This document shows, piece by piece, positions 28,682-44,622 of a stretch of 64,000 nucleotides of DNA (its first letter is position 1; each line of letters begins with the position of its first letter). Both the position numbers and the translations under genes were made by a program. The DNA is from Pseudomonas viridiflava (lineage in GTDB: Bacteria; Pseudomonadota; Gammaproteobacteria; Pseudomonadales; Pseudomonadaceae): NCBI RefSeq assembly GCF_900573885.1, contig NZ_UPSE01000453.1, positions 124,001 through 188,000 on the forward strand. The letters run 5' to 3'. Under the pieces are notes generated by a model, which was not told where the DNA came from, did not search any database, and saw only the letters and a list, made by a program, of their open reading frames with translations.

Positions 28682-29013
28682 GCCCCCAGCGCTCACCTTG
28701 TAGGAGCCAGCTTGCTGGCGAATGGATTGCTGCGCCGATGAATGCCTCGATGTTGTTGATCCGCTTTTGCTCTGGCATTTGCTCTGGCTTTTGATATGGC
28801 TTTTGATTTACCCGCCCCGTTCATCGCAGGCCGAGTGGAGTCGACGTGGAGGGGGTTGAGCGGCCGGGAGCCGCGAAAGGAGCATCGGGCCATGGATGGC
28901 CCGTTGTGACGGCCCCCGGAGTGGCGATGGAATGAGGGGAGTCGGAGCGCAGCGGAGACCCAAGGTAGGGGCAAGCCTTTTGCCCCGCTTTTCGGCGATT
29001 GGAAAAGCGGGTC
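28682..29013 (+). other. Non-coding stretch with REP half and dispersed genomic repeat
   Basis: It begins with a REP-like hairpin (TTGTAGGAGCCAGCTTGCTGGCGAATGG, from 28699). From about 28826 to 29013 it resembles a repeat known from many pseudomonad genomes (GGAGCCGCGAAAGGAGCATCGGGCCATGGATGGCCC region, with a short TTTTGCCCCGCTTTTC segment). Open frames on the minus strand here are translations of that repeat, not genes. Confidence 0.6.
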
Positions 29014-29280
29014 GCGCGTAAGGCGCGAAACAAAACGTTCAGCCAATGCGGTAATGAATACCCACCACCGCGTAACGTTGGGCTTCGCTGGACGCTCAAC
29101 CCAACCTACAAAAGCCTCGCGCGTAAGGCGCGAAACAAAACGTTCAGCACACGCGGTAATGAATACGTCCTTAGATCTACCGCACACGACTTGAGATTCC
29201 AGATCCCCGCGTGCGCGAGGATGACGGAGGGTTTGGTTGAAATGCGCGTAAGGCGCGAAACAAGACGTTCGCCACACGCA
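29014..29280 (+). repeat. Three spaced copies of a GCGCGTAAGGCGCGAAACAAAACG repeat
   Basis: Copies start at 29014, 29119 and 29244. The first two match over 48 bp apart from a short variable patch (29014-29061 and 29119-29166). The third (29244-29280) is shorter and has G for A in CAAGACG. Between copies 1 and 2 lies a piece of the TTGGGCTTCGCTG...CAACCCAACCTAC repeat (29076-29109). Between copies 2 and 3 lies a GTCATCC-type unit (29196-29227). The area is a landing zone of several repeat families. Confidence 0.85.
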
Positions 29281-29330
29281 ACAAAGCAGAACGACGCGAT
29301 ATCAGACGCGCTACAAAAACCCAATAAACA

Positions 29331-29354
29331 AAAAACCCGCCGAAGCGGGTTTTT
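29331..29354. terminator. Intrinsic terminator (bidirectional shape)
   Basis: AAAAACCCGC (29331-29340), loop CGAA, GCGGGTTTTT (29345-29354): a perfect 10-bp stem with A and T runs on either side. The nearest plus-strand gene ends 650 nt before it and no minus-strand gene lies close, so its transcript is unknown. Confidence 0.88.
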
Positions 29355-29414
29355 CTCAGACCATCCCAACATCCTGTCAGCAGCCATCATGGCAATGGTC
29401 GATCGTCCCTGATC

Positions 29415-29860
29415 CTGAAGCACTCCCTGCGCTTCAGTGACGGTTCTAGATTACGAAAAGTCCTACAGACGTAAAAGGCGATATCGGAGCCGCTTCTTGT
29501 AAGCCTTTCGCTATAGCTGAACGCGCTGCCACCAGCACGCCTGCAAACCGAGCGCTCGCTCGGGCTAAAAGCGTGCGTCACTTCTAATCCCCCAAATGCC
29601 TCGCAGCAGCTTTAGAACGGCCCCTGCGCTGTTGCCCACGCAACAGCAGAACAACAAGGTGCCCAGCAGCCTCGGCATAACACGACATAACCGTCATTGC
29701 AGGCGACTGATATGCCATCAACTGCCTCACCAGCCGTCGTAAACCGTCCGTCTTGTCATCGTTTAGTAGCAGCGGGGTCTTTTACTGCACAGCAAGGGTG
29801 CAGTAATGCAGACGGCGCCTGAGTCGGCTGGTCTTTTATTTGTGACTTCGCCGTCACAAA
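29415..29860. other. Hairpin-dense non-coding region upstream of the EPS locus
   Basis: No gene was recognised between 29355 and 30324. Five perfect inverted repeats occur within 450 nt: CTGAAGC/GCTTCAG (29415-29437), CCGAGCG/CGCTCGG (29548-29563), GCTGTTG/CAACAGC (29628-29647), ACTGCAC/GTGCAGT (29784-29804) and TTTGTGAC/GTCACAAA (29839-29860). Their spacing and loop sizes differ, so they are not one repeat family. They could be parts of a structured RNA or regulator sites. Confidence 0.6.
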
Positions 29861-30096
29861 CGGACCGTTGATCGGACGACCGGCTGCACTATCCACGGAA
29901 CAAATGCCGGGAAATCAATCCAACCAAAGTCGAGTCTAACGCTGACGCGGCACCGGTCCGGTAGGAAGTTGCTGCAGCCGACAAAGGCGAATTCCTTGAT
30001 GTGTAAGGGACTTAATACAGTGGTAGGCGGTGGAGATAGCAGGTTGCCATCGCCGCTGCAGTGGGCTTATGCTCCGCACCCGCTGCGCTGAGGCAA

Positions 30097-30123
30097 ATTT
30101 TTTTTGAACTTTTCGAAAAAAAT
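30097..30123. promoter_or_regulatory. AT-rich dyad in the EPS promoter region
   Basis: ATTTTTTTTGAA-CTT-TTCGAAAAAAAT, a 12-bp inverted repeat with one mismatch, in an otherwise GC-rich genome. It lies about 200 nt before the RfaH-like gene. Such A/T tracts are typical of UP elements or of MvaT/H-NS-like silencer binding; which one applies here is inference. Confidence 0.45.
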
Positions 30124-30324
30124 AAACCTAACGAAATCAGCTAGAAATCCCTGCTGCTAAAGGGCGCCATGAAACCGACACATAGGTTCGGTAAGCTTGG
30201 CTCTGTGTAATGGCATATTTCGTGCTTCGTAGGAATTAAGGCCTGGTTCGAGTGCGTGACAACTGTCAAGCACAACTCCAGTTTCATCAGCCAGCTTGAT
30301 TTCGCGAAGTGGAGTGAATGGTCT

Positions 30325-30828
30325 ATGGAAAGACTTGGCACCACCCAGCCGGCCTGGTACCTCTTGCAATGCAAGGCGCGCCAGGACAGCCGCGCTGAAG
30401 AGAATCTGCTCCGGCAGAACTATGTGACCTTTCGGCCCCAGTTGGTGACGCAGCGCGTAGTGCGCGGCAAGCGCCTGGATGTGCTGGAGTCACTGTTCCC
30501 CGGATACCTGTTTATCCAGTTGAGCCACGAGGACAACTGGTCTGCGCTGCGCTCCACGCGCGGAGTCAGCCGCATCGTCAACTTCAACCACCGCCCCGCC
30601 ACGGTGACCGATCAGGTCATCGAGCATTTGCGTGTGCGCTGTTCGGGTGAGGTGCCCAGCCAGCTGTTCCAGCCGGGCGACAAGTTGCAAATCATCCAGG
30701 GGCCATTAAGCACGCTCGAAGGAGTCTTCGTGGCGATGGATGGCACCGAACGCGTGATGATCCTGTTGCAGTTGTTGAGTCGCGAACAGCCTGTTCGCGT
30801 GCCTTTGAGTCATATCAAGAGCGCGTAA
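30325..30828 (+). CDS. rfaH: RfaH-type NusG paralogue (transcription antiterminator)
   Basis: Specialised elongation factor expected to bind RNA polymerase at ops sites, reduce pausing and Rho termination and recruit ribosomes. 167 residues. The NGN domain begins PAWYLLQCKARQDSRAEENL, followed by RPQLVTQRVVRGKRLDVLESLFPGYLFIQ and the RGVSRIVNF segment close to E. coli RfaH ATRGVSHFVRF. A KOW-type C-terminal domain starts FQPGDKLQIIQGPLSTLEGVF. The start was set at the ATG 30325 with GGAG 10 nt before it; a GTG start at 30256 would add 23 residues not seen in RfaH. It opens the EPS locus. Housekeeping NusG would lie beside rpl genes, which are absent here. Confidence 0.88.
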   Translation: MERLGTTQPAWYLLQCKARQDSRAEENLLRQNYVTFRPQLVTQRVVRGKRLDVLESLFPGYLFIQLSHEDNWSALRSTRGVSRIVNFNHRPATVTDQVIEHLRVRCSGEVPSQLFQPGDKLQIIQGPLSTLEGVFVAMDGTERVMILLQLLSREQPVRVPLSHIKSA

Positions 30829-30957
30829 ACAGGCCGGTATTAACCGAACCTGATGCTCTGGCGTAGCCGGTCGTTGTTGGACCGGCGCTCGCGGTGCCGG
30901 AGCTGTTTTCACCACATTTGCTCGCCGCGTTATCAAGGACCATACGTGCAACCTTGG

Positions 30958-30969
30958 GGCGGTAGCGTG
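30958..30969 (+). promoter_or_regulatory. ops element (RfaH recruitment site)
   Basis: The sequence GGCGGTAGCGTG is identical to the 12-base core of the enterobacterial ops element (operon polarity suppressor), including the invariant GGCGGTAG. It lies on the transcribed plus strand, 130 nt after the stop of the RfaH-like gene and 62 nt before the next start, inside the leader of the EPS genes, where an ops site should be. Confidence 0.88.
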
Positions 30970-31030
30970 GGAAAACGACCACATTTTGAACCGTTGGCCA
31001 AACTGGCCAGCCAGAACCAAGGACACCGCC

Positions 31031-31231
31031 ATGCGCGCCATTTATGCCTCTGCCTTGTTTTTCCTGGCCCTGACCGCCGGCGCTGTAAACGCTGCCGACG
31101 TTTCGCCTGCAACCGCACCGCTGGTCGCCGCAGATGAAGGCCAATCCGCCACGGGCGACAGCGCAACAGGCGCGCCATCGGGCGGTAACGCAGGCACCGG
31201 CAGCACTGCCGATACAGCCAGCCCGAGCTGA
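31031..31231 (+). CDS. Small secreted Ser/Thr/Gly-rich protein
   Basis: 66 residues. A signal peptide of about 21 residues (MRAIYASALFFLALTAGAVNA) is followed by a low-complexity tail rich in Ala, Ser, Thr, Gly and Asp and without Cys. The ATG is preceded by CAAGGACACCGCC, giving an AAGGA site 8-9 nt before it. It is the first gene after the ops site and 148 nt before the beta-barrel gene. No known family was recognised. The signal peptide and ribosome site make a real gene likely; its role in EPS export or assembly is only suggested by position. Confidence 0.7.
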   Translation: MRAIYASALFFLALTAGAVNAADVSPATAPLVAADEGQSATGDSATGAPSGGNAGTGSTADTASPS

Positions 31232-31379
31232 AGAAGATTGATGTAGGACGCGGAGTAAAGAGCTGAGCGAATTGTTAATGAAACCAATTGCAAATGCCGC
31301 GCACTAAGCGAAGCGGCACAGCTCATCCGCTACCCCTGACGCGCGCCCTGCCGCAGGCATGAACAAGCAAGGACTTCGC

Positions 31380-32540
31380 ATGAAATCGATCCGTCGGCTA
31401 GCCATAACGCTTGCAGCCCCGACCGTAATTCCCGCCTCGGCATGGGCACTGGAACCGCAGAGTGTCGACGTGTTCGGCCTGCAGTTCACCCCGACCCTGA
31501 CGGTGAAAGAAAGCTACGACGACAACTTCCGCGAGCTTGAGCACGAGGAAGAGTCTTCGTGGATCACCACCATCAAACCTGCTTTCGAATTGTTGGCAGA
31601 AGACCGTAACAGCGCCTACCGCCTGACTTACGAAGCCGACAGCGACATCTATCACGATGCCTCGGACGCCACCAACACCGACCACAAGGTGCTGCTGGAA
31701 AGCATCATGGAGTTCACCTCCAGCCATCGTCTGAAGCTGGAAGCCGGTTACGACAAAATCGAAGAAACCGGGGATACCGCGGTCGCCGACGAGAACGACA
31801 AGTACCACTCCACGCACGTGGGCGGCTTGTACACCTTCGGTTCGAAGACGGCCGATAACCGCCTGGACTTCGGCGCCAACTACGAAGAGTTGCGTTACGA
31901 CAACACCGGCAATATCAACGCCGACGAAGAGCGCGACACCACGGCATTCAACACCGTGTGGTACCACCGCCTCGGTGGCTCGACCAACTCGCTGGTTGAG
32001 TATCGCCACTACGACTACGACTACGTGCAGAAAAACAGCCCGCGCAACAGCACCAACGACGCAGTACTGGTCGGCGGCATCTGGGAAGCCACGGCGAAAA
32101 CCACCGGCAAGATGCGTGTGGGTTACGAGAAGAAGAATTTCGATGACAGCAGCCGCGACGACCTGACCAGCCCGATGTGGGAAGTCGGCGTCGACTGGAG
32201 CCCGCGAACGTACTCCACGTTCAGCCTGAGCACCCGCCGCGCCTTTGACGAAGGTGACGACGGCTCCGATGCCATCAAGAACACCAGCACCTCGCTGGCC
32301 TGGGCACACGGCTGGACCGAGCGCATTACCTCCACCGTGCAATACGAGTTCGGCACCAAGGATTACGAAGGCCAGGAGCGTTCCGACGACCTGCAAGTGA
32401 TCGGCTTCAACCTCAATTACAAAATGCGCCGCTGGCTCGATATCGGCGTTGGCTACAGCCACCGCGACAACGATTCCGACGCTGCGGAGCAAAGCTTCAA
32501 ACGCAACGTGTACATGGTCAGCCTCACCGGCAGCCTTTGA
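31380..32540 (+). CDS. Outer-membrane beta-barrel protein of an EPS locus (BBP2-like)
   Basis: 386 residues with a signal peptide (MKSIRRLAITLAAPTVIPASAWA). The rest alternates polar and aromatic residues in many short strands (GLYTFGS, RLDFGANYEELRYD, NSLVEYRHYDYDY, KMRVGYEKKNF, WLDIGVGYSHRD) and ends with a strand closing on a hydrophobic residue (VYMVSLTGSL). This fits the putative beta-barrel porin families found beside polysaccharide export genes. The start was set at 31380 with AAGGA 6-7 nt before it; an in-frame ATG at 31359 lacks a ribosome site. It probably forms the outer-membrane exit or anchor for the polymer, next to the short OPX protein. Confidence 0.82.
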   Translation: MKSIRRLAITLAAPTVIPASAWALEPQSVDVFGLQFTPTLTVKESYDDNFRELEHEEESSWITTIKPAFELLAEDRNSAYRLTYEADSDIYHDASDATNTDHKVLLESIMEFTSSHRLKLEAGYDKIEETGDTAVADENDKYHSTHVGGLYTFGSKTADNRLDFGANYEELRYDNTGNINADEERDTTAFNTVWYHRLGGSTNSLVEYRHYDYDYVQKNSPRNSTNDAVLVGGIWEATAKTTGKMRVGYEKKNFDDSSRDDLTSPMWEVGVDWSPRTYSTFSLSTRRAFDEGDDGSDAIKNTSTSLAWAHGWTERITSTVQYEFGTKDYEGQERSDDLQVIGFNLNYKMRRWLDIGVGYSHRDNDSDAAEQSFKRNVYMVSLTGSL

Positions 32541-32563
32541 GCCATATCATCTTGAGCCTCTCT

Positions 32564-33097
32564 ATGATTCGCAGACTTTTTCTCTCGCTGATTACCCTGG
32601 TTTTCTGCCAACTGGCCGTAGCCGAAACGAGTGGCGGGCAATACCAGCTCGCCTCGGGTGACGTTGTGCGCATTCAGGTGTACGGGGAACCGGACCTGAG
32701 TTTCGAAGAGATTCGTCTGAATGACGCGGGCACGTTCACCTACCCGTTCGTGGGTCAGATCGATGCACGCGGCAAGACGCCCAATCAGATCGAAGACCTG
32801 ATCGCCAACAAGCTTCAAGAAGGTTATTTGAAAGACCCTCGGGTCACCGTGGCAGTGGTTACTTACCGTGAGTTCTACATCAGCGGCGAAGTGCAAAAGC
32901 CAGGCGGTTATCCGTATCAGCCGGGCCTCACCCTGCAACGCGCCATCGCCCTTGCGGGCGGTCTGACGGAGCGTGCTTCGACCAAGCGCGTGACCATCGT
33001 GCGTGGCACCGGTGAAACCCGTCAGGGCGAAAAAGCCACCCTCGAAACCGCCATTCTTCCTGGCGACACCATCACCATCGAGCAAGGTTTTTTCTGA
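32564..33097 (+). CDS. Short polysaccharide export (OPX/Wza-family) protein
   Basis: 177 residues. A signal peptide (MIRRLFLSLITLVFCQLAVA) precedes the polysaccharide export domain (YQLASGDVVRIQVYGEPDLS, PFVGQIDARGKT) and one SLBB domain (FYISGEVQKPGGYPYQPG, LALAGG-like IALAGGLTERAS). It has no good lipobox and lacks the C-terminal helix and extra domains of full Wza (about 380 residues), so it cannot form the outer-membrane pore alone. It overlaps the kinase gene by one base (TGATG). Confidence 0.9.
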   Translation: MIRRLFLSLITLVFCQLAVAETSGGQYQLASGDVVRIQVYGEPDLSFEEIRLNDAGTFTYPFVGQIDARGKTPNQIEDLIANKLQEGYLKDPRVTVAVVTYREFYISGEVQKPGGYPYQPGLTLQRAIALAGGLTERASTKRVTIVRGTGETRQGEKATLETAILPGDTITIEQGFF

Positions 33098-35337
33098 TGA
33101 ATGATCTTCAGCGCATCACCCCAGAGCGCGTCTTGCCGTTTCGTAATCACCATAACGAAGACGAAGATGTCATCGACTTGAAAAAGCTCGGTGAAACCCT
33201 GTGGCAGGGCAAGTGGAACATTCTTGCCCTGGTCGTCATCGTCACCATGCTGGCTGTGGTCGCGGTGCTTAACCTGACGCCGCAATACCGCGCCAACTCG
33301 ATTTTGCTGATCGAAGACAAACACCCGCCGGTGTTGTCGTTCCAGCAGATTCTCGACACCACCGACAGCGGCAGCGAATACCTGCAAACCCAGCTGGCGC
33401 TGCTGCAATCCCGAGCCCTGGCCGAGCGCGTGGTTCGCAAGTTGAACCTGACGGACGAACCCCTGTTCGACCCGCGTCAGCACGCTGAGTCAGCCTTCGC
33501 GCCGCGCGCCATTCTGGCCAAGCTCGGTGTCGGCGAACTGATTCCCGGCCTGCTGCCGGAAGAAGACCCGAACGCCGGCCCGACCGAAGAGCAAGTGTTC
33601 GATATCGTCACCCAGCGTCTGCGCGATGAAATTGAACCGGCCCTGCTCGGCAAGAGCAAACTGATGGGCATCGGCGTTGAACTGCCTAACCCGGAACTGG
33701 CGGCAAAAATCGCCAACGCCGTGGCCGACGGTTTTATCGACAGCCAACTGGATGCCAGCCTGGAAACCTCGCTGGCCACCACCAACTGGATGAACTCCCG
33801 CCTGGAAGAGCTGCGCAGCAAACTGAAAACCGCTGAAGACACCTTGCAGGGCTACCGTGAACAGGAAGGCCTGGTAGATGTGGACGGCGTTGCCACCATC
33901 AGCGCCAACGAGCTGTCGATGACCGGCAACCGCATGATCGATGCCCGCCGCGCTCGCGCCGAAGCTGAAAGCCAGTACCGTCAGGTGCAGAAACTGAGCA
34001 CCACGGGCGACCTCGAACGTCTGGCCAGCGTGCCCGCCGTGCTTGGCCACCCGCTGATTCAGCAGTTCAAGGCAGACGTTGCCCGCGCCCAGGCCAAGGT
34101 TGAAGAAATGTCGCGCCGTTATGGTGACAAGCACCCGGCCATGGTCGGCGCCCGTTCGGAATTGTCTGCCGCCACCGCCAGCCTGCAAGCGCAGGTGCAA
34201 TTGGTGGTTGCCGGTATCGAGCGCAACTATCAACTGGCCCAGGCCAACGAAAACTCGCTGCGTTCCTCGTTCAATAACAACAAGGCGCAGATTCAGGACA
34301 TCTCCCGCAAGGAGTTCAAGCTGCGTGAGCTGCAACGTGAAGTGGACACCAACCGATCGCTGTACGAGACGTTCCTTCAGCGCCTGAAAGAAACCGCTGC
34401 CACCTCGGACATGAACTCGGCAAACGCCCGTATCGTTGACCGCGCCATTGTGCCGACCAAGGCCAGCAAGCCACGCAAGTCGCTGATCGTTTCGATTGCA
34501 GCGGTGCTGGCTGCGGTGCTGGGCATTGGTCTGACCTTGCTGTTTGAAGCCATGAACAACAGCTTCAAGAGCACCGAAGACGTCGAAAGCAAACTCAACG
34601 TGCCGGTTCTGGGTGTGGTGCCATTGGTGCCGAAGAAGAACCGTCATCAGGTCGCGCACCTGTTCGAGCAGAACGAGAACAAGGCCTTCAGCGAGTCGAT
34701 ACGAACGCTGCGTACCAGCCTGGTACTCACCGACCTCGACAGCCCGCGCAAGATCGTTCTCGTCACCTCCTCCGTACCAGGCGAAGGCAAGAGTTCGATC
34801 GCCAGCAACCTCGCCTTCTCGGTGGCGCACATTGAAAAAGTGCTGCTGATCGACGCCGACTTGCGCCGCCCGACCATGGCTCGCAACTTCGACTTCCCGG
34901 TGGGCACACCGGGCCTGGCCAACCTGATTGCCGGTACCGCCAAGCTCGATGAATGCATTCGCACCGTGGGCAACGTCGACATGATGCCAGCCGGCATGGT
35001 GCCGCCGAACCCGCAGGAACTGCTGTCGTCGGCACGCCTGACCAACATTCTGGAACTGCTGAAAACCCGTTACCAGCGCATCATCATCGACTCGCCACCG
35101 ACCATGGCGGTGAGTGACTCGAAGCTGTTGGCAACTACCTGCGACGCGCTGATCTATGTGGTTCGCGCCGAGCACACCTCGATTCCGATGGTGCAGAAAG
35201 GCATGGGCCAGCTGTTGCAAAACAACGCGCCGGTCACCGGTGTGGTGTTGAACCAGGTAGACCTGAGCAAGACCTCGAAATACGGTTACAGCTATGCCAG
35301 CTACTACGAAAACTACGGCGAAACGCCGAAAGCCTAG
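33097..35337 (+). CDS. wzc: Wzc-type polysaccharide co-polymerase / tyrosine autokinase
   Basis: Inner-membrane protein of 746 residues that sets chain length and couples polymerisation to export by cycles of tyrosine phosphorylation. It has an N-terminal Wzz domain with a first membrane segment (about 45-65, NILALVVIVTMLAVVAVL), a long periplasmic coiled-coil part, a GNVR-like region and a second membrane segment (about 465-485). A cytoplasmic BY-kinase domain follows, with Walker A SVPGEGKSS (about 560), Walker A' LLIDADLRRP (about 583) and Walker B IIIDSPP (about 661). The tail is tyrosine-rich (SKYGYSYASYYENYG), the usual autophosphorylation cluster. Confidence 0.95.
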   Translation: MNDLQRITPERVLPFRNHHNEDEDVIDLKKLGETLWQGKWNILALVVIVTMLAVVAVLNLTPQYRANSILLIEDKHPPVLSFQQILDTTDSGSEYLQTQLALLQSRALAERVVRKLNLTDEPLFDPRQHAESAFAPRAILAKLGVGELIPGLLPEEDPNAGPTEEQVFDIVTQRLRDEIEPALLGKSKLMGIGVELPNPELAAKIANAVADGFIDSQLDASLETSLATTNWMNSRLEELRSKLKTAEDTLQGYREQEGLVDVDGVATISANELSMTGNRMIDARRARAEAESQYRQVQKLSTTGDLERLASVPAVLGHPLIQQFKADVARAQAKVEEMSRRYGDKHPAMVGARSELSAATASLQAQVQLVVAGIERNYQLAQANENSLRSSFNNNKAQIQDISRKEFKLRELQREVDTNRSLYETFLQRLKETAATSDMNSANARIVDRAIVPTKASKPRKSLIVSIAAVLAAVLGIGLTLLFEAMNNSFKSTEDVESKLNVPVLGVVPLVPKKNRHQVAHLFEQNENKAFSESIRTLRTSLVLTDLDSPRKIVLVTSSVPGEGKSSIASNLAFSVAHIEKVLLIDADLRRPTMARNFDFPVGTPGLANLIAGTAKLDECIRTVGNVDMMPAGMVPPNPQELLSSARLTNILELLKTRYQRIIIDSPPTMAVSDSKLLATTCDALIYVVRAEHTSIPMVQKGMGQLLQNNAPVTGVVLNQVDLSKTSKYGYSYASYYENYGETPKA

Positions 35338-35366
35338 CGCTGCCTCGCCGCGCTCCTGTGGCTGTT

Positions 35367-35391
35367 CGAGTGGTCTACTTTTGGCCACTCG
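35367..35391 (+). other. Hairpin after the kinase gene
   Basis: CGAGTGG (35367-35373) and CCACTCG (35385-35391) form a 7-bp stem with an 11-nt loop. No T run follows, so it is a possible attenuator or processing site rather than a clear terminator. It lies in the 185 nt gap before the phosphatase gene. Confidence 0.5.
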
Positions 35392-35522
35392 TCATTAATC
35401 CGAACCGGCGCCAGACGCCGGTCATGGATTACCGTTCCAAACCTTTAAATCCGCCGTTCTCTGCCTGGTGGTGCCCGTTGTAAATGGGGTCACGACCTGC
35501 GTGAGCTACGCCCGGAGGCAAC

Positions 35523-36269
35523 ATGATTGACCTGCACTCACATTTATTACCTGGAATCGATGACGGTGCCGAAACCATGGCTCAGGCGCTGGAGATGGCC
35601 GCGCACGCGGTCGCCTGCGGCACCACGCATATGGTCTGCACGCCGCACCTGCACCCTGGCCGTTATCACAACACCAAGGCGAGCATTCGCGTGGCCGTGG
35701 CGCAGTTTGCCCAGGCGCTGGCCAAGGCGGGCATCGCACTGCAAGTGAGTGCAGCCGCTGAAGCACGCTTCGATTCGGACCTATTGCCCCTGGCCATGGC
35801 CGGTCAACTGCCCTTCCTGGGTGAATGGAACGGTCGCAAGGTGCTGTTGCTGGAATTCCCCCACAGCGAGATTCCACGCCAGGCTGAAAAGCTCACCGGC
35901 TGGATGCTGAAGAACAACATTCAACCGCTGATTGCCCACCCCGAACGCAACAAGGAATTAATGGGCACTGGTAATCACAAACGTATCGAACCCTTTCTGG
36001 CTCAAGGCTGTCTGTTGCAGGTCACCGCTGGGGCAGTTGCCGGTTACTTCGGAAATCCGGCTCAGGAACTGGCCGAACGTTTCCTTCTGGAAGGCCAGGT
36101 CACCGTACTCGCCAGCGATGCGCACAACATGAAACACCGTCCGCCAGACCTGCGTCCCGGCCTTGAACACGCCGCTGAATTGATCGGCGAGTCAGCCGCA
36201 CGCCTGTTGGTAGAAGACAACCCGTGGCGTATTGCCCGAAGCCATTTTGCCGCCGCGAGTGCCGCATGA
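35523..36269 (+). CDS. PHP-type protein-tyrosine phosphatase (CpsB/YwqE family)
   Basis: 248 residues. It is a metal-dependent phosphatase of the polymerase-histidinol phosphatase fold, with metal ligands visible in MIDLHSHLLPGIDDGAE (HxH), TPHLHPG, IAHPERN and ASDAHNMKHRPPDLRPG. In this family it dephosphorylates the tyrosine-rich tail of the BY-kinase, resetting the cycle. Many proteobacterial EPS loci use a low-molecular-weight phosphatase (Wzb) instead; here the PHP type takes that place. AGGCAAC lies before the ATG. The stop overlaps the next gene (ATGA). Confidence 0.91.
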   Translation: MIDLHSHLLPGIDDGAETMAQALEMAAHAVACGTTHMVCTPHLHPGRYHNTKASIRVAVAQFAQALAKAGIALQVSAAAEARFDSDLLPLAMAGQLPFLGEWNGRKVLLLEFPHSEIPRQAEKLTGWMLKNNIQPLIAHPERNKELMGTGNHKRIEPFLAQGCLLQVTAGAVAGYFGNPAQELAERFLLEGQVTVLASDAHNMKHRPPDLRPGLEHAAELIGESAARLLVEDNPWRIARSHFAAASAA

Positions 36270-37033
36270 CCGATACACCGCTACCCCAACAGCCGCCGCG
36301 CACCGAACGCCGTGCCAGCCGCCAGCCGCCCAAGCCACAGTCGCCGCTGTATCGCGCGCTGACCGGCGTGGGCCTGGTGGCATCGCTCGCAGCGCTGGTG
36401 CCGGCAACCCAGATGGCCGTGGCCGGGCTGGCCAGCTACCGCACCGAAACCACCCTGCAACGCTGGCAAGCCAGCGCGCAGGTGCCAGCTGAAGCCAAGT
36501 GGCAGCAAGCCCTGCGCGCCGCTCAACTGGCCAATGCCTGGTACCCGGTGGCAAGCGGCACGTACCTCGAACAACTGGGCCAGGTGTACAGCTGGCGCGC
36601 CTTCGATCAACCCGTTGGCGCCGACAGCGCTCGCGACTCCCGCCTGTTGGCGGCTGCAGCCTATCGCCAGTCGGCGCAGGCGCGGCCGACCTGGCCGACC
36701 ACCTGGGTGCACCTGGCCCAGAGCAAATACGCCCTGAGCGAAATCGACAACGAATTCGCCCAGGCACTCAAGCAAGCAAACGAGTGGGGCCCGTCTCGGC
36801 CCGATGTCCAGTTGGAACTTGCAAGCACCGGCCTACGCGCGTGGCCTGTGCTGAATCACCAACAACGCGTCGACGCTGTCACTTCTGCACGCCAAGCCAT
36901 GGATAGCACGAAACAAGCTGCGAACTCCCTGTTCGCCATCGCCCAGGCCAACGGCCTGGAACAGACGCTCTGCACGAGCGTCGGCGAGAGCGACGGGGCC
37001 CGAAACTACTGCACGCGTGGAGGTAACCGATAA
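36266..37033 (+). CDS. Membrane-anchored protein of the EPS locus, unknown function
   Basis: 255 residues. The N-terminus is cytoplasmic, basic and proline-rich, then one membrane segment (about 32-55, ALTGVGLVASLAALVPATQM) leads into a mostly helical periplasmic part. That part has repeated alanine-rich helices (WQQALRAAQLANAWYPVAS, AAAYRQSAQARPTWPTTWVH), reminiscent of TPR-like scaffolds. A resemblance to VpsP-like proteins of other EPS loci is possible but not certain. The start overlaps the phosphatase stop and the stop abuts the next ATG, so it is firmly in the operon. It may help assemble the synthesis complex. Confidence 0.6.
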   Translation: MTDTPLPQQPPRTERRASRQPPKPQSPLYRALTGVGLVASLAALVPATQMAVAGLASYRTETTLQRWQASAQVPAEAKWQQALRAAQLANAWYPVASGTYLEQLGQVYSWRAFDQPVGADSARDSRLLAAAAYRQSAQARPTWPTTWVHLAQSKYALSEIDNEFAQALKQANEWGPSRPDVQLELASTGLRAWPVLNHQQRVDAVTSARQAMDSTKQAANSLFAIAQANGLEQTLCTSVGESDGARNYCTRGGNR

Positions 37034-38428
37034 ATGACTTCCCAACACAGCAACCTCATGGCTAACCGCCGTGGCCTCACCTTCTGGGGCCAATGGGCTA
37101 CTGCCATGTTTCTTGCCAACCTGGTACTCACCGCTCTGGTGGTGATGAAATTCGGCTCTATACCGAGCGAATACCGGGTTCTCGGCATTCTCACCATTCT
37201 CGGCTCGGTGCCCTGCTATGCCGCTTTGCAGGTCTACCACAAGCGCCATCGCCTGCTGTCGGGCATGGGCCGTTTGCTGGCTGGCTGGTGCCTGCTGCTG
37301 GGCGCGTTGATGACAATCGCGTTTGCCACCCAGACCACCGGCGTGTACTCGCGTGAAGTGGTATTCAGCTGGGCGATTCTTGGCTTCACTGTCCAGGTGC
37401 TCAGCTACATCCCACTGCGCATGATCACCCGCCTGCACTCGCGCAAGCTGCGCAAGGATCGCCGTTCGGTCATCGTCGGCACCGGCACGCTGGCCAAAGA
37501 CCTCGCGGAAAAACTCAGCCACCCGAGCCGCGTGCCCTTGATCGGCATGATCTCGACCGAAAAAACCAAGGCTGATGACAACTGCGTATTGCCGATTCTG
37601 GGCAGCCTCAACGAGCTGCGTGATGTGATCGAGCGCGAGAACATTCGCCGCGTTTACATCGCCGTGCCGCTGGGCGAAGTGCAGCACATTGAAAACATCT
37701 ACATCGACCTGCTCGACATGAGCGTGGACGTGGTGTGGATTCCAGACTTCGGCTCGATGCTGTTGCTCAACCAGTCGATCTCCGAAATCGAACACATGCC
37801 GGCCATCTACCTCAACGAAAGCCCGATCAGCTCGCACCCGGCAGCCCTGTTTGCCAAGGAAGCCATGGAGCGCACCCTGGCCGCCATCGCCCTGCTGCTG
37901 CTGAGCCCGGTCATGATCGCCATCGCCATTGCAGTACGTCGCTCCTCGCCGGGTCCGATCCTGTTCAAACAGGAACGCCACGGCTGGAACGGTGAAGTGA
38001 TCAAGGTCTGGAAATTCCGCTCGATGCGGGTTCATGCACCGGAGACCGTGGTTAAACAGGCCACCCGTGGCGACGACCGCATTACCCCGGTTGGCGCCTT
38101 TATCCGCCGCACCTCGCTGGACGAACTGCCACAGCTGTTCAACGTGGTGTTTGGTGAAATGGCACTGGTTGGCCCGCGTCCACACGCGGTGACCCACAAC
38201 ATCTACTACACCGACAAGATTCGCGCGTACATGGCCCGTCACCGCATCAAACCGGGCATCACCGGTCTGGCGCAGATCACCGGTCACCGTGGCGAAACCG
38301 AGACCATCGACAAGATGCAGCAGCGCGTTAACCAGGACCTCAACTACATCAACCAATGGTCGCTGTGGCTGGACGTGAAAATCCTGATCAAGACCCCGTT
38401 CACCCTGTTGTCGAAAAACATTTACTAA
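37034..38428 (+). CDS. Undecaprenyl-phosphate sugar phosphotransferase (WcaJ/WbaP family)
   Basis: Starts each repeat unit by moving a hexose-1-phosphate, probably glucose or galactose, from UDP-sugar to undecaprenyl phosphate. 464 residues. There are four to five N-terminal membrane segments, a CoA-binding-like middle domain (SVIVGTGTLAKDLAEKL) and a C-terminal sugar transferase domain from about 275: a membrane hairpin (LAAIALLLLSPVMIAIAIAV), then SSPGPILFKQERHGWNG, KFRSMRVH, RRTSLDELPQLFNVV and the DxxGRxxR-like end RHRIKPGITGLAQITGHRGET. Followed by a strong terminator. Confidence 0.93.
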   Translation: MTSQHSNLMANRRGLTFWGQWATAMFLANLVLTALVVMKFGSIPSEYRVLGILTILGSVPCYAALQVYHKRHRLLSGMGRLLAGWCLLLGALMTIAFATQTTGVYSREVVFSWAILGFTVQVLSYIPLRMITRLHSRKLRKDRRSVIVGTGTLAKDLAEKLSHPSRVPLIGMISTEKTKADDNCVLPILGSLNELRDVIERENIRRVYIAVPLGEVQHIENIYIDLLDMSVDVVWIPDFGSMLLLNQSISEIEHMPAIYLNESPISSHPAALFAKEAMERTLAAIALLLLSPVMIAIAIAVRRSSPGPILFKQERHGWNGEVIKVWKFRSMRVHAPETVVKQATRGDDRITPVGAFIRRTSLDELPQLFNVVFGEMALVGPRPHAVTHNIYYTDKIRAYMARHRIKPGITGLAQITGHRGETETIDKMQQRVNQDLNYINQWSLWLDVKILIKTPFTLLSKNIY

Positions 38429-38435
38429 GCCAATC

Positions 38436-38463
38436 AGCCCCGTGCTCGCCACGGGGCTTTTTT
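38436..38463 (+). terminator. Intrinsic terminator inside the EPS locus
   Basis: AGCCCCGT (38436-38443), loop GCTCGCC, ACGGGGCT (38451-38458) and a run of six T (38458-38463): a textbook Rho-independent terminator on the plus strand. It lies 8 nt after the initiating transferase and 61 nt before the Wzy-like gene, both on the same strand, so downstream genes need antitermination, read-through or another promoter. Confidence 0.92.
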
Positions 38464-38524
38464 GGGCCGCTGCACTTTTTATTCGTCACCCTTTCACTCC
38501 ACTGTCAGAGCACCGATCCGAACC

Positions 38525-39988
38525 ATGGAAGCCATTCCAATCGCCTTATTCTGGGGTTTCGTACTCCTCAGCCTGTTCGGCAAGCCCCATGCTCTGCTGT
38601 ACCTTTTTTTCGGCTCGTTCTCGTTCGGCGCTTTTGCCGTAATTCCATCAACGCTTACCGGCGGCCTGACGCTGACGCCAACGCCTATCGTGGTGTTGCT
38701 GATCGTCGCGCGCACGTTGTGCAGCCGCCCCGGTATCGAGTTTTTCGTCAGCGCCGCGCTGACACCGAAACGCCTGTTGCTGCTTTTCCTGTACTGGATC
38801 GTGGCCCTGTTCGTCACCGTGTTCATGCCGCGTCTGTTCATGAACGAGGTCACCATCATTCCAGTGCGACTGGAGCTGTCGACCTTTGGTGAACCGCTGC
38901 GCCCTTCCACGCAGAACTTTTCACAGATGGCCTACCTGACCATCTCGGTGTTCGCCGTATTTGCGTTTACCCGTTTGATGCGCGAAGCCACCATTCGCCA
39001 GCACGCGCTCAAGGCCATCTGCCTGGGCGGCGCGCTGGCCCTGTTCACCGGCCTGGTCGACTTCGCCAGCCAGTTCGTACCGCTCGAAGCGGTGTTGGCG
39101 CCGTTCCGCACGGCCACCTACGCGCTGATGACCGAAGTGGAAATTCTCGGTGGCAAGCGCGTGGTGGGCCTGATGCCCGAAGCCTCGGCATATGGCTTCC
39201 TGTGCATTACCTTCCTGGGTCTGATCTATTTCTTCCGCCACGGTATTCGTGACCGCTGGCTGCGTGAGACCGGCGCGCCGATGTTGATCATCGGCCTGAT
39301 CGGCATGATCTGGTTGTCCACGTCCTCGGCGGCGTACGTCGGTCTGGTGGTGTTCTTCCTCGCCGCTGCGCTGGAATGGACGGTGCGCAAAAGCTCGCGC
39401 AATCCCGGCAAAGGCCTGGGCGTGGAATTCTGGACGGTGTGGAGCGCCATCATTCTGGTGGGCCTGGTGGTGCTGTTCGCCCCTGCCCTGCTCGACCCGA
39501 TCGTGGAAAAGGTCAACGAGATGGTCGTGAACAAATCCAAGACCAGCTCGTATGAAGAACGCAGCATGTGGACCGCCGTCGGCTGGCAATCGCTCTGGGA
39601 TACCTGGGGCATCGGCGTGGGTATCGGCGCCACCCGCACCTCGAACTTCGCTGCGGCGGTATTCAGCAACAGCGGCCTGATTGGCGGTTTCCTGTACTTC
39701 GCCTTTGTGTGGCAGTCGATGCGCCGCAAGGTGCCGGCCGGCCCGGATGCGGCCAACAGCCAGTCGATTCTCAACGGTGTGCGTTATGCCTACATCCCGA
39801 CTTTTATCGTGAGTCTGCTGATCGGTACCACCCCGGACTTCAACAACTACAACGCGTTCTTGTATGCCACAGCCCTGGCGGTGGCACTCGGTGCCCGTAA
39901 ACAGTCCATGCCCACTCCGGCGTTTGGACAAGGACCCTGGCGCCCAATGACCGGCGCGCCTCAGGCGGGTGAGCTACCACGATGGTGA
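38525..39988 (+). CDS. Predicted EPS polymerase (Wzy / O-antigen-ligase-like)
   Basis: 487 residues, integral membrane with about 10-12 hydrophobic segments, for example LLLLFLYWIVALFVTVFMP and APMLIIGLIGMIWLSTSSAA. A large loop between late segments (about 325-370) is typical of Wzy and WaaL proteins. The segment WLSTSSAAYVGLVVFFLAA matches the S-R/S-A region of O-antigen-ligase-like families. Position next to Wzx supports a polymerase. The start was set at the ATG 38525, after the terminator; the longer frame runs back into it. It overlaps the flippase gene by 7 nt. Confidence 0.8.
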   Translation: MEAIPIALFWGFVLLSLFGKPHALLYLFFGSFSFGAFAVIPSTLTGGLTLTPTPIVVLLIVARTLCSRPGIEFFVSAALTPKRLLLLFLYWIVALFVTVFMPRLFMNEVTIIPVRLELSTFGEPLRPSTQNFSQMAYLTISVFAVFAFTRLMREATIRQHALKAICLGGALALFTGLVDFASQFVPLEAVLAPFRTATYALMTEVEILGGKRVVGLMPEASAYGFLCITFLGLIYFFRHGIRDRWLRETGAPMLIIGLIGMIWLSTSSAAYVGLVVFFLAAALEWTVRKSSRNPGKGLGVEFWTVWSAIILVGLVVLFAPALLDPIVEKVNEMVVNKSKTSSYEERSMWTAVGWQSLWDTWGIGVGIGATRTSNFAAAVFSNSGLIGGFLYFAFVWQSMRRKVPAGPDAANSQSILNGVRYAYIPTFIVSLLIGTTPDFNNYNAFLYATALAVALGARKQSMPTPAFGQGPWRPMTGAPQAGELPRW

Positions 39989-41247
39989 AATCCAAGGACG
40001 CGAGCGCTAACAAGTCCCGCGCTGACTTTTTCTTTGTCTATCTGGCTTACACCCTGCGTTACCTGTACTTGCTGTTGCTGATTCCGTTCTACGGCCGCGT
40101 GCTGGGCGTTGAAGGCTATGGCGTGGTGCTGGCAGCCATGTCGCTGATGACCATTGCCTGGCGCTTTGTCGAATGGGGTTTTGCCACCATCGGCATGCGC
40201 GAAATGGCCACGGCCACGCCCGACCGCTTTGGCGTGTTGATGGGCCATCACCTCAGCGCCCGCTTGCTGCTCACGGTCGCTGCGATTCTGGGCGGCGCCG
40301 CCGCGATCATGCTTTCGCCGGTACTGGCAGCACATCCGATTGCGGGTGCAGCGGCCGTCACCCTGGGCATCGTTTCGGCGTTCAACCTGGGTTGGTATTT
40401 CGTCGGCAGCCATCGCCCCCGGGCGGCGGTGAAGCTGGAAGTGCTGGGTTTTGCGGTGAGTCTGGTACTGATTTTTGCCTTGGTGCGCGACGAAGACGAC
40501 AGCGGTCTGGTGCTGCTCTCGCTGCTCTGCTCCGGGGTTGTGGCCTCGGGCTTCGCGTACTGGCAAGTGCGCAAGGAAATGACCGGCGCCACCCTGGACA
40601 TCAAGCAAGGCGTGCAACTGATTCGCCAGTCGAGCACCGTGTTCTTGTACACGGGCACCTCGGCGCTGCTGGTGGCTTCGTCCACTTACTTGCTGAGTAT
40701 TTTGTCCACCTCTGCCGAGGTCGGCTCGTTCGGCGCGGCGGAGCGATTGATTGCAGTGGGTTTGAGCGTGATGGGTCCGGCCGGGCAGATCTTCGTACCC
40801 AAGATCACGGCCTTGTTCGTCAAGGACGTCGACGGCGCCCACGCCCTGATCCGCAAAGCGTTTCTGCTGATTTTCGGCATCGGCGTTGCGGGCTTGTTGT
40901 GCAGCGTGGTGTTGGGTCCGTGGGTGGTGCCGATCATTTTCGGCCCGGGTTTTGAAAACAGCGTGCCGTTGCTGCAACTGATGGCGGTGCTCTTCCCCAT
41001 CAGTGGCTGCAACCTGGTACTCGCCAGCTATGTGCTGATCCCGCAGCACAAGGAAAGCGTGTTGGCAAAAGTGGTGCTGGCCGGTGCAGCGATCAGCCTG
41101 TTGATCGCCGTGCCGCTCGGTATGCATTTTGGGGGGATGGGCATGGCTGTGGCCCGTCTCGTGGGTGAGTCGATTGTGCTAATCAGCCTGACTTACTACT
41201 GCTGGAAAATGGGCATTCTGGCTCGTATCTTCAACGTTAAAAAATGA
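39982..41247 (+). CDS. Wzx-type lipid-linked oligosaccharide flippase
   Basis: 421 residues, 12-14 hydrophobic segments, MOP/PST superfamily. The N-terminal RADFFFVYLAYTLRYLYLLLLIPFYGRVLGVEGYG is a typical start for polysaccharide biosynthesis flippases, and later helices such as STVFLYTGTSALLVASSTYLLS fit. It would turn the undecaprenyl-linked repeat unit to the periplasmic face for polymerisation by the neighbouring Wzy-like protein. Its stop overlaps the next start (ATGA). Confidence 0.88.
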   Translation: MVKSKDASANKSRADFFFVYLAYTLRYLYLLLLIPFYGRVLGVEGYGVVLAAMSLMTIAWRFVEWGFATIGMREMATATPDRFGVLMGHHLSARLLLTVAAILGGAAAIMLSPVLAAHPIAGAAAVTLGIVSAFNLGWYFVGSHRPRAAVKLEVLGFAVSLVLIFALVRDEDDSGLVLLSLLCSGVVASGFAYWQVRKEMTGATLDIKQGVQLIRQSSTVFLYTGTSALLVASSTYLLSILSTSAEVGSFGAAERLIAVGLSVMGPAGQIFVPKITALFVKDVDGAHALIRKAFLLIFGIGVAGLLCSVVLGPWVVPIIFGPGFENSVPLLQLMAVLFPISGCNLVLASYVLIPQHKESVLAKVVLAGAAISLLIAVPLGMHFGGMGMAVARLVGESIVLISLTYYCWKMGILARIFNVKK

Positions 41248-42182
41248 TGGATTTTCCAATGAAGGCATTCGTCGTAATCGCCACGAAAGGGCGCGCCAAA
41301 GAGACTTACGTTCTGCTCGACTACCTCGAGCGTCAGACCGAAAAACCAGCGCATGTGGTGTTAGTGGGCAGTGAAGCTAAAGACGTTGAAGGATTGGAAG
41401 CACATCCCCTTGTTACCAGCGGCCAGGGCAGCATTCTGCTGTCGCGCGCAGGCCTGACCATTCAACGCAACGCCGGCCTCGATGCGCTTGTGCCGATGGT
41501 GGCAGAGCTGCCGGGAAGCGAATGGTTCGTCACCTTCTATGACGACGATTTCCGTCCGGCACCGAACTGGCTGGAAAGCGCCGGCAAAGCCATGCAGCTT
41601 GACCGGCAGATCATGGGCGTCACCGGCAACGTACTGGCCGACGGCGTGAACAGCGAATTCGGCGTATCCGAAGCCGATGCGGCGGCCTATATCAGCGGCC
41701 AGAAGCCGGCTGAAAATCACTGGTCGAGTTCCTCGAAACAGAAAGACCTGAGCGGCCTGTACGGTTGCAACATGGCCTACCTCGGCACCGTGGCCACCAC
41801 CCTGCGCTTCGATGAAAACCTGCCCATGTATGGCTGGCAGGAAGACTTCGACTATTCCAGCCGCACGCGCCAATACGGCCGCGTGGTGTTGGAGCCAAGC
41901 TGCCGCGGTGTGCACCTGGGCGTGAGCTCGGGCCGTACCAGTGGTGTGCGTTTTGGTTACTCGCAAATCGCCAACCCGATTTTCCTCGCTCGCAAGGGCA
42001 CCATGACCTGGCGTACAGCCGCCAAGCTCATGTCCAAGAACCTCCTCGCAAATATTGCGAAAACCCTGTTCATGGTTCGCATAAAAGACTTCCCGGGGCG
42101 TCTACGCGGGAACTTTCGAGCCTTCAGCGATCTGATCAGCGGCAAGCTCAATCCTCTGCACGTTCTGGACTTAAAGCAGTAA
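41244..42182 (+). CDS. Glycosyltransferase family 2
   Basis: 312 residues, GT-A fold. The nucleotide-sugar binding start is KAFVVIATKGRAKETYVLLDYL and the metal site is FVTFYDDDFRPAPNWLE (DDD). The GYGWQEDFDYSSRTRQYG-like region (MYGWQEDFDYSSRTRQYGRV) carries the probable catalytic acid. It probably adds one sugar of the repeat unit on the cytoplasmic face. The first start (ATG 41244) overlaps the flippase stop; in-frame ATGs at 41247 and 41259 are alternatives. Donor sugar not determinable. Confidence 0.87.
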   Translation: MMDFPMKAFVVIATKGRAKETYVLLDYLERQTEKPAHVVLVGSEAKDVEGLEAHPLVTSGQGSILLSRAGLTIQRNAGLDALVPMVAELPGSEWFVTFYDDDFRPAPNWLESAGKAMQLDRQIMGVTGNVLADGVNSEFGVSEADAAAYISGQKPAENHWSSSSKQKDLSGLYGCNMAYLGTVATTLRFDENLPMYGWQEDFDYSSRTRQYGRVVLEPSCRGVHLGVSSGRTSGVRFGYSQIANPIFLARKGTMTWRTAAKLMSKNLLANIAKTLFMVRIKDFPGRLRGNFRAFSDLISGKLNPLHVLDLKQ

Positions 42183-42219
42183 CCAGCGCGCGCGTATAAC
42201 TACAAAAAAATCACGCGTT

Positions 42220-42250
42220 AGCCCGTTGCGTTTTCACGCGCATCGGGGCT
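42220..42250 (+). other. Weak terminator-like hairpin in the 200-nt gap after the GT2 gene
   Basis: AGCCC (42220-42224) and GGGGCT (42245-42250) with an inner TTGCG/CGCGCA stem, followed by CTTTC. A second stem CCAGCCG/CGGCTGG (42333-42339, 42351-42357) lies just before the next ribosome site. The gap is the largest in the second half of the EPS locus and may hold a promoter or attenuator. Confidence 0.4.
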
Positions 42251-42382
42251 CTTTCGCGCTGCGTTTTGCCTGACGGTCTACGCAAGGCCTGCGCCACAAG
42301 CCCGGGTCTTATTTCAGTATCGGTAAGCAGTACCAGCCGCCATGTGATGTCGGCTGGTGTGTGGAAATACAAGGAGATTTAC

Positions 42383-43531: not shown

Positions 43532-43596
43532 GCGACGCATACGCGTTAACCCTTTTTTATCAAGCCTCCAGTCACCTCCCCTTTTCAGAGCGATAA

Positions 43597-44622
43597 ATGT
43601 TTATGGTGATTATTTTTTCCGGTCATTTGATCAACCTCGGCGACGCGTTGATCGCGCTGCGTGAGGCCAGGCATTTCCAGAGCAAGGGCCACAAGGTTGT
43701 GGTCTGCCCCTGGGAAGAAGCCCATGGCGAGCTGCGCGCCGACTTTGAAAAACTGGGCATCGACATCGTGCCGATCCGTAGCCAGCCGTTCAAAGCCATG
43801 CTGCTGTGCATGAAGGCGCACATCATTTTTGGTGGCGGGCACATGGTGCGCGAGCAGGTGTCGACGTTCTGGCTCGGCTTCACCACCCTGGCATTTTTCT
43901 TCAGTCGCCTGCTTGGTCACCGCGTGGTGATCGCGGGCGTCGGGGTCAGCAAGGTGCAACACTCACTGCGCGCCAGGCTTTACCAAACCATGCTGCGTCT
44001 GGCCACGGTGGCTTACGTGCGCGACCCGGTGTCCGAGCAGGTGCTGCGTGATCTGGCGCCGGCCAGCAAGGCGAAAATTCACCTGGGTGGCGACATGGCC
44101 TTTATTGGCGGGCCAATTGAAAGCCTGCCCTGCACCGGCATCTGCATGGTGGCGCCGGCCGTGGACAAAAGTGAAAACCGCAGCGTCGACCACGATGAGA
44201 TCCTGCAGGTGCTCAACAACCTCAAGCATCAGGGCCTCAAGCGCGTCACACTGGTCTCCCACGATATTCGCGACGACTTCGACCTGCAGGCCTGCCGCGA
44301 AATCAAAGCGTTTCTTGACGGCAAAATCGATGTGCCGGTGGACATTCTGCCCATCAGCGACCTGAGCTCCGGCCTGCTGCCGGCATACCGCGAAGCCACC
44401 TGGGTGATTACCGCGCGGCTGCACGGCCTGATCCTCGCCTCGCTCAACGGCGCCACCGTTTACTACACCGAAGCCTCGAGCAAGAAGCTGCAGTATTTCG
44501 CCGAATTTTTTGGCTACACCTCGGCGCGTAAAGAGAACCCTTCGGCGACGTCCCGCGACGGCCTGGCGCAAATCACCAGCAGCCTGTCACACCGCGCCGA
44601 AAATTCAGTCGCAGCGCTATAA
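43597..44622 (+). CDS. Polysaccharide pyruvyl transferase family protein
   Basis: 341 residues. It belongs to the CsaB/WcaK-like family that adds ketal pyruvate to sugars from phosphoenolpyruvate: N-terminal FSGHLINLGDALIALREARHF, middle IIFGGGHMVREQVSTFW and GVGVSKVQHS, and C-terminal VITARLHGLILASLNGATVYY with the conserved RxHG. Pyruvylation would give the polymer a negative charge. The family also contains members of other function, so the reaction is probable rather than proven. Spaced 65 nt after the previous gene. Confidence 0.82.
   Translation: MFMVIIFSGHLINLGDALIALREARHFQSKGHKVVVCPWEEAHGELRADFEKLGIDIVPIRSQPFKAMLLCMKAHIIFGGGHMVREQVSTFWLGFTTLAFFFSRLLGHRVVIAGVGVSKVQHSLRARLYQTMLRLATVAYVRDPVSEQVLRDLAPASKAKIHLGGDMAFIGGPIESLPCTGICMVAPAVDKSENRSVDHDEILQVLNNLKHQGLKRVTLVSHDIRDDFDLQACREIKAFLDGKIDVPVDILPISDLSSGLLPAYREATWVITARLHGLILASLNGATVYYTEASSKKLQYFAEFFGYTSARKENPSATSRDGLAQITSSLSHRAENSVAAL

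Follow-up and report, generated by a model that had tools for sequence, protein, structure and literature searches.

The rfaH gene has been treated as a stand-alone gene whose product acts in trans through the ops element (PMC7593976, PMC7819879). The DNA analysed here, a stretch of 64,000 nt from Pseudomonas viridiflava (the window, whose coordinates are used throughout unless otherwise stated), raised the question of what an rfaH-type gene may do when an exact ops element lies between it and the EPS genes that follow. The gene and its leader were arranged as follows:

30325-30828, plus strand: rfaH-type NusG paralogue of 167 aa (open reading frame, HMMs and Pfam NusG PF02357)
30928-30969, plus strand: leader element CGTT..CAAGG..CCTTG-GGGCGGTAGCGTG, the most conserved rfaH-EPS block in the window's clade
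30934-30956, plus strand: stem-loop CAAGG(13 nt)CCTTG, with its base 12 nt before the U11 pause position of ops
30958-30969, plus strand (the non-template strand of the EPS operon): exact ops element GGCGGTAGCGTG

From the sequences, and by analogy with E. coli, we consider it probable that this locus encodes a cis-linked RfaH, which would be recruited by the neighbouring ops and would help RNA polymerase to finish an EPS operon of about 22 kb.

The earlier note on this DNA had described a NusG paralogue close to RfaH at 30325-30828, and both HMM scores and PDB matches agreed with it. The protein scored above the cut-offs of the RfaH models NCBIfam TIGR01955 (164.7 bits, cut-off 144.5) and NF006534 (133.6, cut-off 124) and below those of the UpxY (NF033644, 79.8, cut-off 100) and LoaP (NF033641, 53.5, cut-off 125) models, and it matched E. 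coli RfaH chains in the PDB with E 2.4e-26 versus 4.5e-11 for the best NusG. An alternative GTG start at 30256 was likewise open; three close relatives aligned from residue 1, in agreement with the ATG at 30325 as the start of the gene. Eleven residues of E. coli RfaH have been named as ops contacts, with H20 among four direct side-chain contacts (PMC5995543). The alignment of these residues, which the earlier note had pointed to as a check, came out only partly in its favour: K10, R23 and R73, which make direct side-chain contacts with ops in E. coli RfaH, were kept in the window protein, as were Q24, T72, G74 and V75, but four of the 11 were changed (H20N, T68A, N70R and A71S). A number of other clades in Pseudomonas have H at position 20, where the window protein has N. 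The autoinhibition residues E48, I93 and F130 were aligned with E, I and F.

The best structural match of an AlphaFold2 model of the window protein was E. coli RfaH on the ops-paused polymerase; the model gave Z 14.9 and rmsd 1.6 over 100 N-domain residues with 8pen, and Z 13.8 with 8phk, but with an rmsd of 10 across both domains. The C-terminal domain was predicted as beta in a run with a 26-sequence alignment (pLDDT 85, pTM 0.59), with which a poor 5-sequence run disagreed, its C-domain being partly helical (pLDDT 54). As modelled with 26 sequences, the beta C-domain would fit a non-autoinhibited RfaH like those described in PMC13015549.

The exact ops that the earlier note had placed between rfaH and the EPS genes was confirmed: GGCGGTAGCGTG lay 129 nt past the rfaH stop and was the sole match in the window at 0 or 1 mismatch. 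Matches at up to two mismatches numbered 6, not above chance (mean 10.7), and the 8-mer GGCGGTAG occurred 3 times versus 1.65 expected by chance, which is not above chance either. In E. coli, G5 and T6 of ops alone are read specifically and C3 pairs with G8; changes at G4, G5, A7 or G8 abolish the effects of RfaH, and the TG at positions 11-12 gives a pause, ops being a consensus pause by itself (PMC5995543). Every one of these reported features (G5/T6, C3-G8, G4, A7 and TG at 11-12) was retained in the window site, which sits ahead of a long operon; we infer that it lies within a transcribed leader.

Since at least one exact ops 12-mer was present in 257 of 298 Pseudomonas genomes, a lone 12-mer was weak evidence and the flanks of all RfaH-like matches were taken. 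This survey comprised 116 RfaH-like matches (E < 1e-17, own genome apart) in 107 of the 298 genomes. The same strand was searched upstream up to 9 kb where read and downstream for 1.2 kb, and the opposite strand upstream up to 6 kb; upstream stretches were about 6 kb, longer for 34 loci (up to 9 kb used), and upstream distances were counted from the start of the protein match and not from the start codon. The exact ops GGCGGTAGCGTG was found in 67 of the 116 loci, a variant, GCGGTAGCTTTG, in 52, either of them in 105 and both in 14. As controls, two reversed motifs matched 0 and 1 loci, and shuffled motifs matched a mean of 0.19 loci, with a maximum of 19 once one shuffle that reproduced ops itself (67 loci) was excluded. 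The linkage of factor and site claimed in the earlier note was thus borne out well beyond the window, suggesting that the rfaH-ops pairing is a rule in Pseudomonas and no oddity. What did not survive was the view of this arrangement as exceptional outside the enterobacteria, because it was near-universal for Pseudomonas RfaH and extended to 11 of 29 further loci from Gammaproteobacteria.

Eleven loci had neither the exact ops nor the variant. Five of them carried a one-mismatch ops within 1.2 kb downstream, always with the difference at positions 10-12, outside the RfaH-contact core as defined for E. coli (PMC5995543); two further loci carried GGCGGTAGCGTTG 6.4 kb upstream of rfaH and one carried GGGCGGTAGCATT 5.9 kb downstream of it, and in L067, L144 and L146 (3 of the 116) there was no ops-like site in the stretches scanned. 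Upstream sites with a single mismatch on the opposite strand occurred in 5 loci, 3 of them with a changed core, and are probably due to chance. Given that the one-mismatch sites differed only at positions 10-12 and that the variant keeps C3-C9, the conservation looks like selection for reading by RfaH.

The association could also be followed in whole genomes with an extended pattern, CYTKGGGCGGTAGCGTG, which was present in 47 of the 298, namely in 46 of 108 with an RfaH-like gene (own genome included) and in 1 of 190 without one; the reversed pattern was found in 2 of 298. Out of 52 extended-pattern sites, 49 were within 9 kb of an rfaH. The three unlinked ones were those of L174 (G256), L169 (G208) and G139, the last in a genome without an RfaH-like match. 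Far from rfaH, the L174 site precedes a UDP-GlcNAc 2-epimerase gene and the L169 site a flippase-like gene; since both precede polysaccharide genes, they are likely trans targets and some trans action is likely. We also observed three extended ops sites on contig C12 of G222 and two on contig C27 of G187, spaced by 1.4-8.2 kb, an arrangement suggestive of several loading stations in a row within a single cluster.

Beyond the survey, such a site was carried by 22 of 25 named loci, with Stutzerimonas, one Halopseudomonas, a gammaproteobacterial bin and Moraxellaceae bins among them; no fewer than six of the named loci sit on the contig of a survey genome, and two of the three misses (L243 and L253) have short flanks. 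In a class-wide gammaproteobacterial sample of 143 genomes, 31 had an RfaH above the cut-off. A same-strand GCGGTAGCGT was found in 11 of the 29 non-window loci, with at most 1.5 kb of flank read, 10 of these being the exact 12-mer, and reversed patterns were found in none. This indicates that linked ops are common in Gammaproteobacteria, with E. coli at one end of the range.

The window's ops owes its significance to being kept in relatives inside an element of about 43 nt. The loss of ops in close relatives that keep the gene, which the earlier note had named as evidence against its proposal, was absent: the three closest survey loci all keep ops, and so do the three named records nearest to the window, two of them from genomes of those loci. 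In the window's clade the spacer between rfaH and the EPS genes has otherwise diverged, and the leader element stands in it as a conserved island. About 30 nt 5' of ops were conserved both where the exact site lies downstream of rfaH and where it lies in a divergent unit (layouts D and U, see below), though they were unused in site selection. The stem was CAAGG/CCTTG in the window's clade, CAGGA/TCCTG in most others and CAGGG/CCCTG in one. When the best of three loop lengths was chosen for each of 47 leaders, all five pairs were formed in 44 and at least four in all 47. A shift of one arm by +1 gave pairing in 43 of the 47, as the helix continues, by +2 in 6, and other slides in 0. In the covariation analysis, carried out on 33 of 36 distinct 43-nt leaders (L084, L092 and L096 left out), 96.9% of the cells were paired and there were 7 double-change cells versus 1.3 in shuffles; the cells paired, the double-change cells and the covariation score were above the control (0 of 500 shuffles). 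The pairs with a double change (2 versus 1.1 for the shuffles, of which 146 of 500 gave as many) and the number of pair types in the stem were not above the control.

In each of the four site classes tested, the 28 nt ending at the first ops base had a better fold than their shuffles (mean z -1.56, -0.99, -1.49 and -0.92), and a better one than at four other offsets. The stem has its base 12 nt before U11, and a hairpin at such a distance stabilises class I pauses. A stem-loop has been described among the JUMPstart elements (PMC2864571); the Rfam JUMPstart model RF01707 matched neither the window nor any of eight related loci at the gathering threshold, and within 29300-33100 it gave no match at E up to 10 either.

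The position of the site relative to rfaH differed among clades. In layout D, to which the window belongs, rfaH is followed by the exact ops at a distance of 50-643 nt; of these 30 loci, 23 have a spacing of 50-134 nt. In layout B, that of a single clade, all 29 loci have the variant 175-358 nt upstream of rfaH; the variant emerged from a count of 10-mers made without regard to ops. In layout U ops lies in a divergent unit, 3.0-4.9 kb off in 16 loci and, as a single variant site besides, at 0.35 kb, and in layout C the sites are mostly 6.4-8.2 kb upstream of rfaH on the same strand, as seen in stretches with more than 6 kb of flank. Seventeen clade C loci had two exact sites, 14 of them the variant followed by the canonical site at a distance of 89-118 nt; these tandem sites lie in the upstream regions L264-L295. 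The layouts were stable on the RfaH tree, requiring 4 changes over the labelled rows, a count outside which the 'none' rows L067, L068 and L144 stand, or 7 with the 'none' rows, versus 62.9 for shuffled labels. The tree has SH-aLRT support only and omits the truncated L108, L145 and L146; the layouts of L085, L094, L103, L115 and L123, which have one-mismatch sites, were assigned by hand, and the very long branches of E. coli RfaH and NusG make the root unsure.

On this tree the window, L033, L034 and L035 formed a clade (clade A) that grouped with clade B (SH-aLRT 97; clade B itself 100). The order after rfaH of outer-membrane, export, kinase and WcaJ-like genes was kept in 3 of 3 window-clade and 28 of 29 clade B loci, so that the same kind of EPS locus has ops after rfaH in the window's clade and before it in clade B. 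Where the variant precedes rfaH, as in clade B, the gene should be part of its own target, with positive feedback as the expected result; in the window rfaH precedes the loading site and should not act on its own transcript.

The variant GCGGTAGCTTTG keeps C3-C9 and has the TG moved one base on, and the core GCGGTAGC was common to both dialects and to all four layouts. A residue code for the dialects was sought and rejected: position 23 was Q in 21 of 29 clade B proteins and R in 8, and the canonical-ops proteins L090, L101 and L102, with N in the alignment, were likewise against a simple code. Seven genomes with two rfaH genes, one variant-linked and one canonical-linked (G220, G237, G233, G083, G208, G172 and G114), are candidates for holding orthogonal pairs. 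A trans regulon of the variant was also discarded, as a second TGCGGTAGCTTTG occurred in 4 of 29 clade B genomes, about the rate elsewhere (38 of 269); one of those 38, G204, has its site linked to an rfaH. Tentatively, and with doubts that outweigh our confidence, Pseudomonas may be seen as a radiation of private cis RfaH-ops pairs, each serving one polysaccharide operon, with two dialects, a site swap and tandem loading. If this were true, the swap at an orthologous EPS locus would make a self-amplifying switch out of an open-loop factor, or vice versa, and the clade C dialects about 100 nt apart would make a double loading station.

The putative target and the surroundings of the pair comprised the following features:

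29330-29442, minus strand: gene for the small RNA rsmX, upstream of rfaH and divergent from it (Rfam RF02144, 115 bits)
30858-30870 and 30882-30900, upstream of ops: terminator-like hairpins in the rfaH-EPS spacer
31031-31231, plus strand: short open reading frame of 66 aa directly behind ops, without a Pfam match
31359-32540, plus strand: outer-membrane beta-barrel protein, the first long gene past ops (Pfam BBP2_2 above cut-off, EpsL-like below cut-off)
32564-33097, plus strand: polysaccharide export protein, EpsE/Wza-like (best family 103.6 bits, below cut-off)
33097-35337, plus strand: chain-length determinant/tyrosine autokinase, Wzc-like (TIGR01007, 161.4, above the cut-off of 108.05)
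35523-36269, plus strand: Cps4B-like protein (88.7 bits, below cut-off)
36266-37033, plus strand: VpsP-like polysaccharide biosynthesis protein (108.7 bits, below the cut-off of 125)
37034-38428, plus strand: undecaprenyl-phosphate glucose phosphotransferase, WcaJ-like (TIGR03023, 449.6, above the cut-off of 410.75)
38436-38458, plus strand: strong terminator-like hairpin after wcaJ with 9 pairs, 7 of them G-C, followed by a T run (terminator scan of 33101-53100)
38522-53604, plus strand: remaining co-directional EPS block (open reading frames, functions mostly judged by eye)

The EPS block thus consists of about 22 kb of co-directional open reading frames running to 53604. Its last part appears, mostly by eye, to contain polymerase- and flippase-like membrane proteins, glycosyltransferases, sugar-nucleotide enzymes and acyltransferase-like proteins; the first two proteins of this last part gave no NCBIfam match in the scan, which reached 42182. 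The BBP2_2 gene was at the same place in clade A and clade B loci. The short product of 31031-31231 has a signal-like start and is close in L033, with a different sequence at this place in L034, L035 and L241. Promoter-like sites were at or below chance in the window scans and none was found with confidence. With ops only 50-134 nt past rfaH, a separate promoter would hardly fit between the two, and rfaH and the EPS genes are therefore likely to share a transcript where this spacing holds. The rsmX gene was also beside rfaH in L033 and L034, with no match in L035, L036, L041, L044, L051 and L064, and points to a possible Gac/Rsm link to the EPS locus. Before rsmX, three copies of a short repeat, cgcgtaaggcgcgaaacaa..., were seen by eye at 29010-29275.

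The earlier note had expected polymerase to cross a terminator and hairpins downstream of ops. The hairpin at 38436-38458, inside the EPS block, agrees with this and is a candidate obstacle for RfaH-modified polymerase, whereas those at 30858-30870 and 30882-30900 precede ops, so that an RfaH loaded there cannot act on them. The wcaJ hairpin was present in L033 and absent from L034, L035 and 29 sister-clade loci; it is therefore no general feature of the module and, as L033 alone among the relatives read has it too, the need to cross it cannot explain why the clade has retained the module. Of 32 loci in clades A and B, 2 had a terminator-like site within 300 nt past wcaJ, namely L033 and L041, the one in L041 being different, and 3 of 32 control stretches inside wcaJ matched too. 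Totals of terminator-like sites were near the shuffled means in both scans, with 6 versus 4.8 up to 33100 and 28 versus 21 in 33101-53100.

Taken in order, the steps by which a cis-linked RfaH would act here are these. RNA polymerase entering the EPS block would pause at ops U11 (30968), perhaps aided by the RNA stem-loop with its base 12 nt upstream. On the non-template strand the ops hairpin with its C3-G8 pair would be exposed, to be bound by the RfaH made from the neighbouring gene via K10, R23 and R73, with N replacing H20. By analogy with E. coli RfaH, the factor would stay on the polymerase, exclude NusG/Rho and couple ribosomes, and the distal EPS genes would be made, including those past the terminator-like hairpin after wcaJ.

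Other explanations have to be weighed against this one. A chance match at 30958 could be argued from the genome itself, with 2 exact ops 12-mers versus 4 for the reversed pattern (the second ops being antisense within an AlgH-like, DUF179, gene), and from the many genomes that have at least one. However, ops and 30 nt of flank were kept in the clade's three further survey loci and also in three named records (two from genomes of those loci), and this conservation, together with the linkage in 105 of 116 loci, ruled out chance, whose probability we regard as practically nil. More can be said for a beta monomorphic RfaH that would load by proximity during its own synthesis, a route that has been proposed for RfaH encoded in cis, with ops as a pause that gives time and a sequence that is not read. 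The C-domain was modelled as beta, rfaH adjoins a same-direction operon, and 23 of the 30 exact downstream sites lie 50-134 nt past the rfaH stop, which would bring the paused polymerase beside the ribosome finishing RfaH. According to a preprint (PMC13015549), operon-adjacent RfaHs were 7 of 10 among monomorphic and 17 of 212 among metamorphic proteins, and the monomorphic ones behaved like an ops-independent mutant; cis-acting beta-RfaHs are recognised there by a same-direction operon of more than 5 kb starting within 1000 bp of rfaH, as is the case in the window, with genes at 31031 and 31359.

Against loading by proximity, the core GCGGTAGC is shared by both dialects and the four layouts in spite of being dispensable for pausing in E. 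coli (PMC5995543); other clades have a linked ops with rfaH 6-8 kb downstream or divergent, where nascent loading cannot work; and E48, I93 and F130 are conserved. We consider this explanation unlikely. That the ops-hairpin element works with NusG, or alone, as a translation-coupling leader pause while the linked RfaH acts elsewhere would be in keeping with ops being a consensus pause by itself (PMC5995543) and with the hairpin found before it in all four site classes tested, but it is hard to reconcile with an extended element present in 46 of 108 RfaH genomes versus 1 of 190 others, and with 49 of 52 such sites near an rfaH, and it appears very improbable. Recruitment of the linked RfaH by its ops therefore remains the explanation that we prefer.

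Several consequences would follow. The association of ops sites with cis linkage bears on the proposal that RfaH evolved 'cis first, ops later', and in the side-swap of ops at the same EPS locus nature has set up an experiment on feedback. With the two dialects it could become possible to separate pausing from recognition of the core. The parts of the system were known; linkage as a rule and the dialects were absent from the PMC literature examined. Our search, which covered the PMC literature, found no report on ops beside rfaH in Pseudomonas, and nothing on the GCGGTAGCTTTG dialect, tandem sites or relocation.

Compared with known systems, the locus resembles E. coli RfaH and its ops/JUMPstart leaders in having an RfaH above the cut-offs, an exact ops, a hairpin before ops and a long polysaccharide operon. 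It differs from E. coli, where rfaH is described as stand-alone and acting in trans (PMC7593976), in the linkage of rfaH to its presumed target, in the four changed contact residues and in the absence of a match to the Rfam JUMPstart model. Clustering of RfaH near envelope genes has been described before (PMC7593976), and rfaH lies in or beside a polysaccharide locus, as here, in Pseudomonas stutzeri 273 (PMC5532660, whose main text has no mention of ops or JUMPstart) and in Azotobacter (PMC4465626). Control of surface polysaccharide by RfaH and ops outside the enterobacteria has its parallel in the capsule and brp loci of Vibrio vulnificus, in which, as reviewed, an rfaH knockout lowers distal capsule genes; the rfaH-ops linkage present in the window is undescribed in those accounts (PMC7247339, PMC7819879). 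The ActX protein of IncX plasmids is also an RfaH homologue at the head of a presumed target, the vir operon, and the main text of that paper does not use the word 'ops' and calls the mechanism unknown (PMC13250579), whereas the window has an ops. The monomorphic beta-RfaHs next to operons resemble the window protein in their linkage to a polysaccharide operon and differ in the ops independence reported for them (PMC13015549), ops being conserved here. Finally, the window's factor shares its location at a presumed target locus with UpxY in Bacteroides, LoaP in Bacillus and TaA in Myxococcus, specialised NusG paralogues whose genes lie within the operons that they control. The recruitment of such linked paralogues has been called unknown (PMC7593976), in contrast to the window, which has a known recruitment site, and a conserved ops beside linked RfaHs may answer the recruitment question for a large group.
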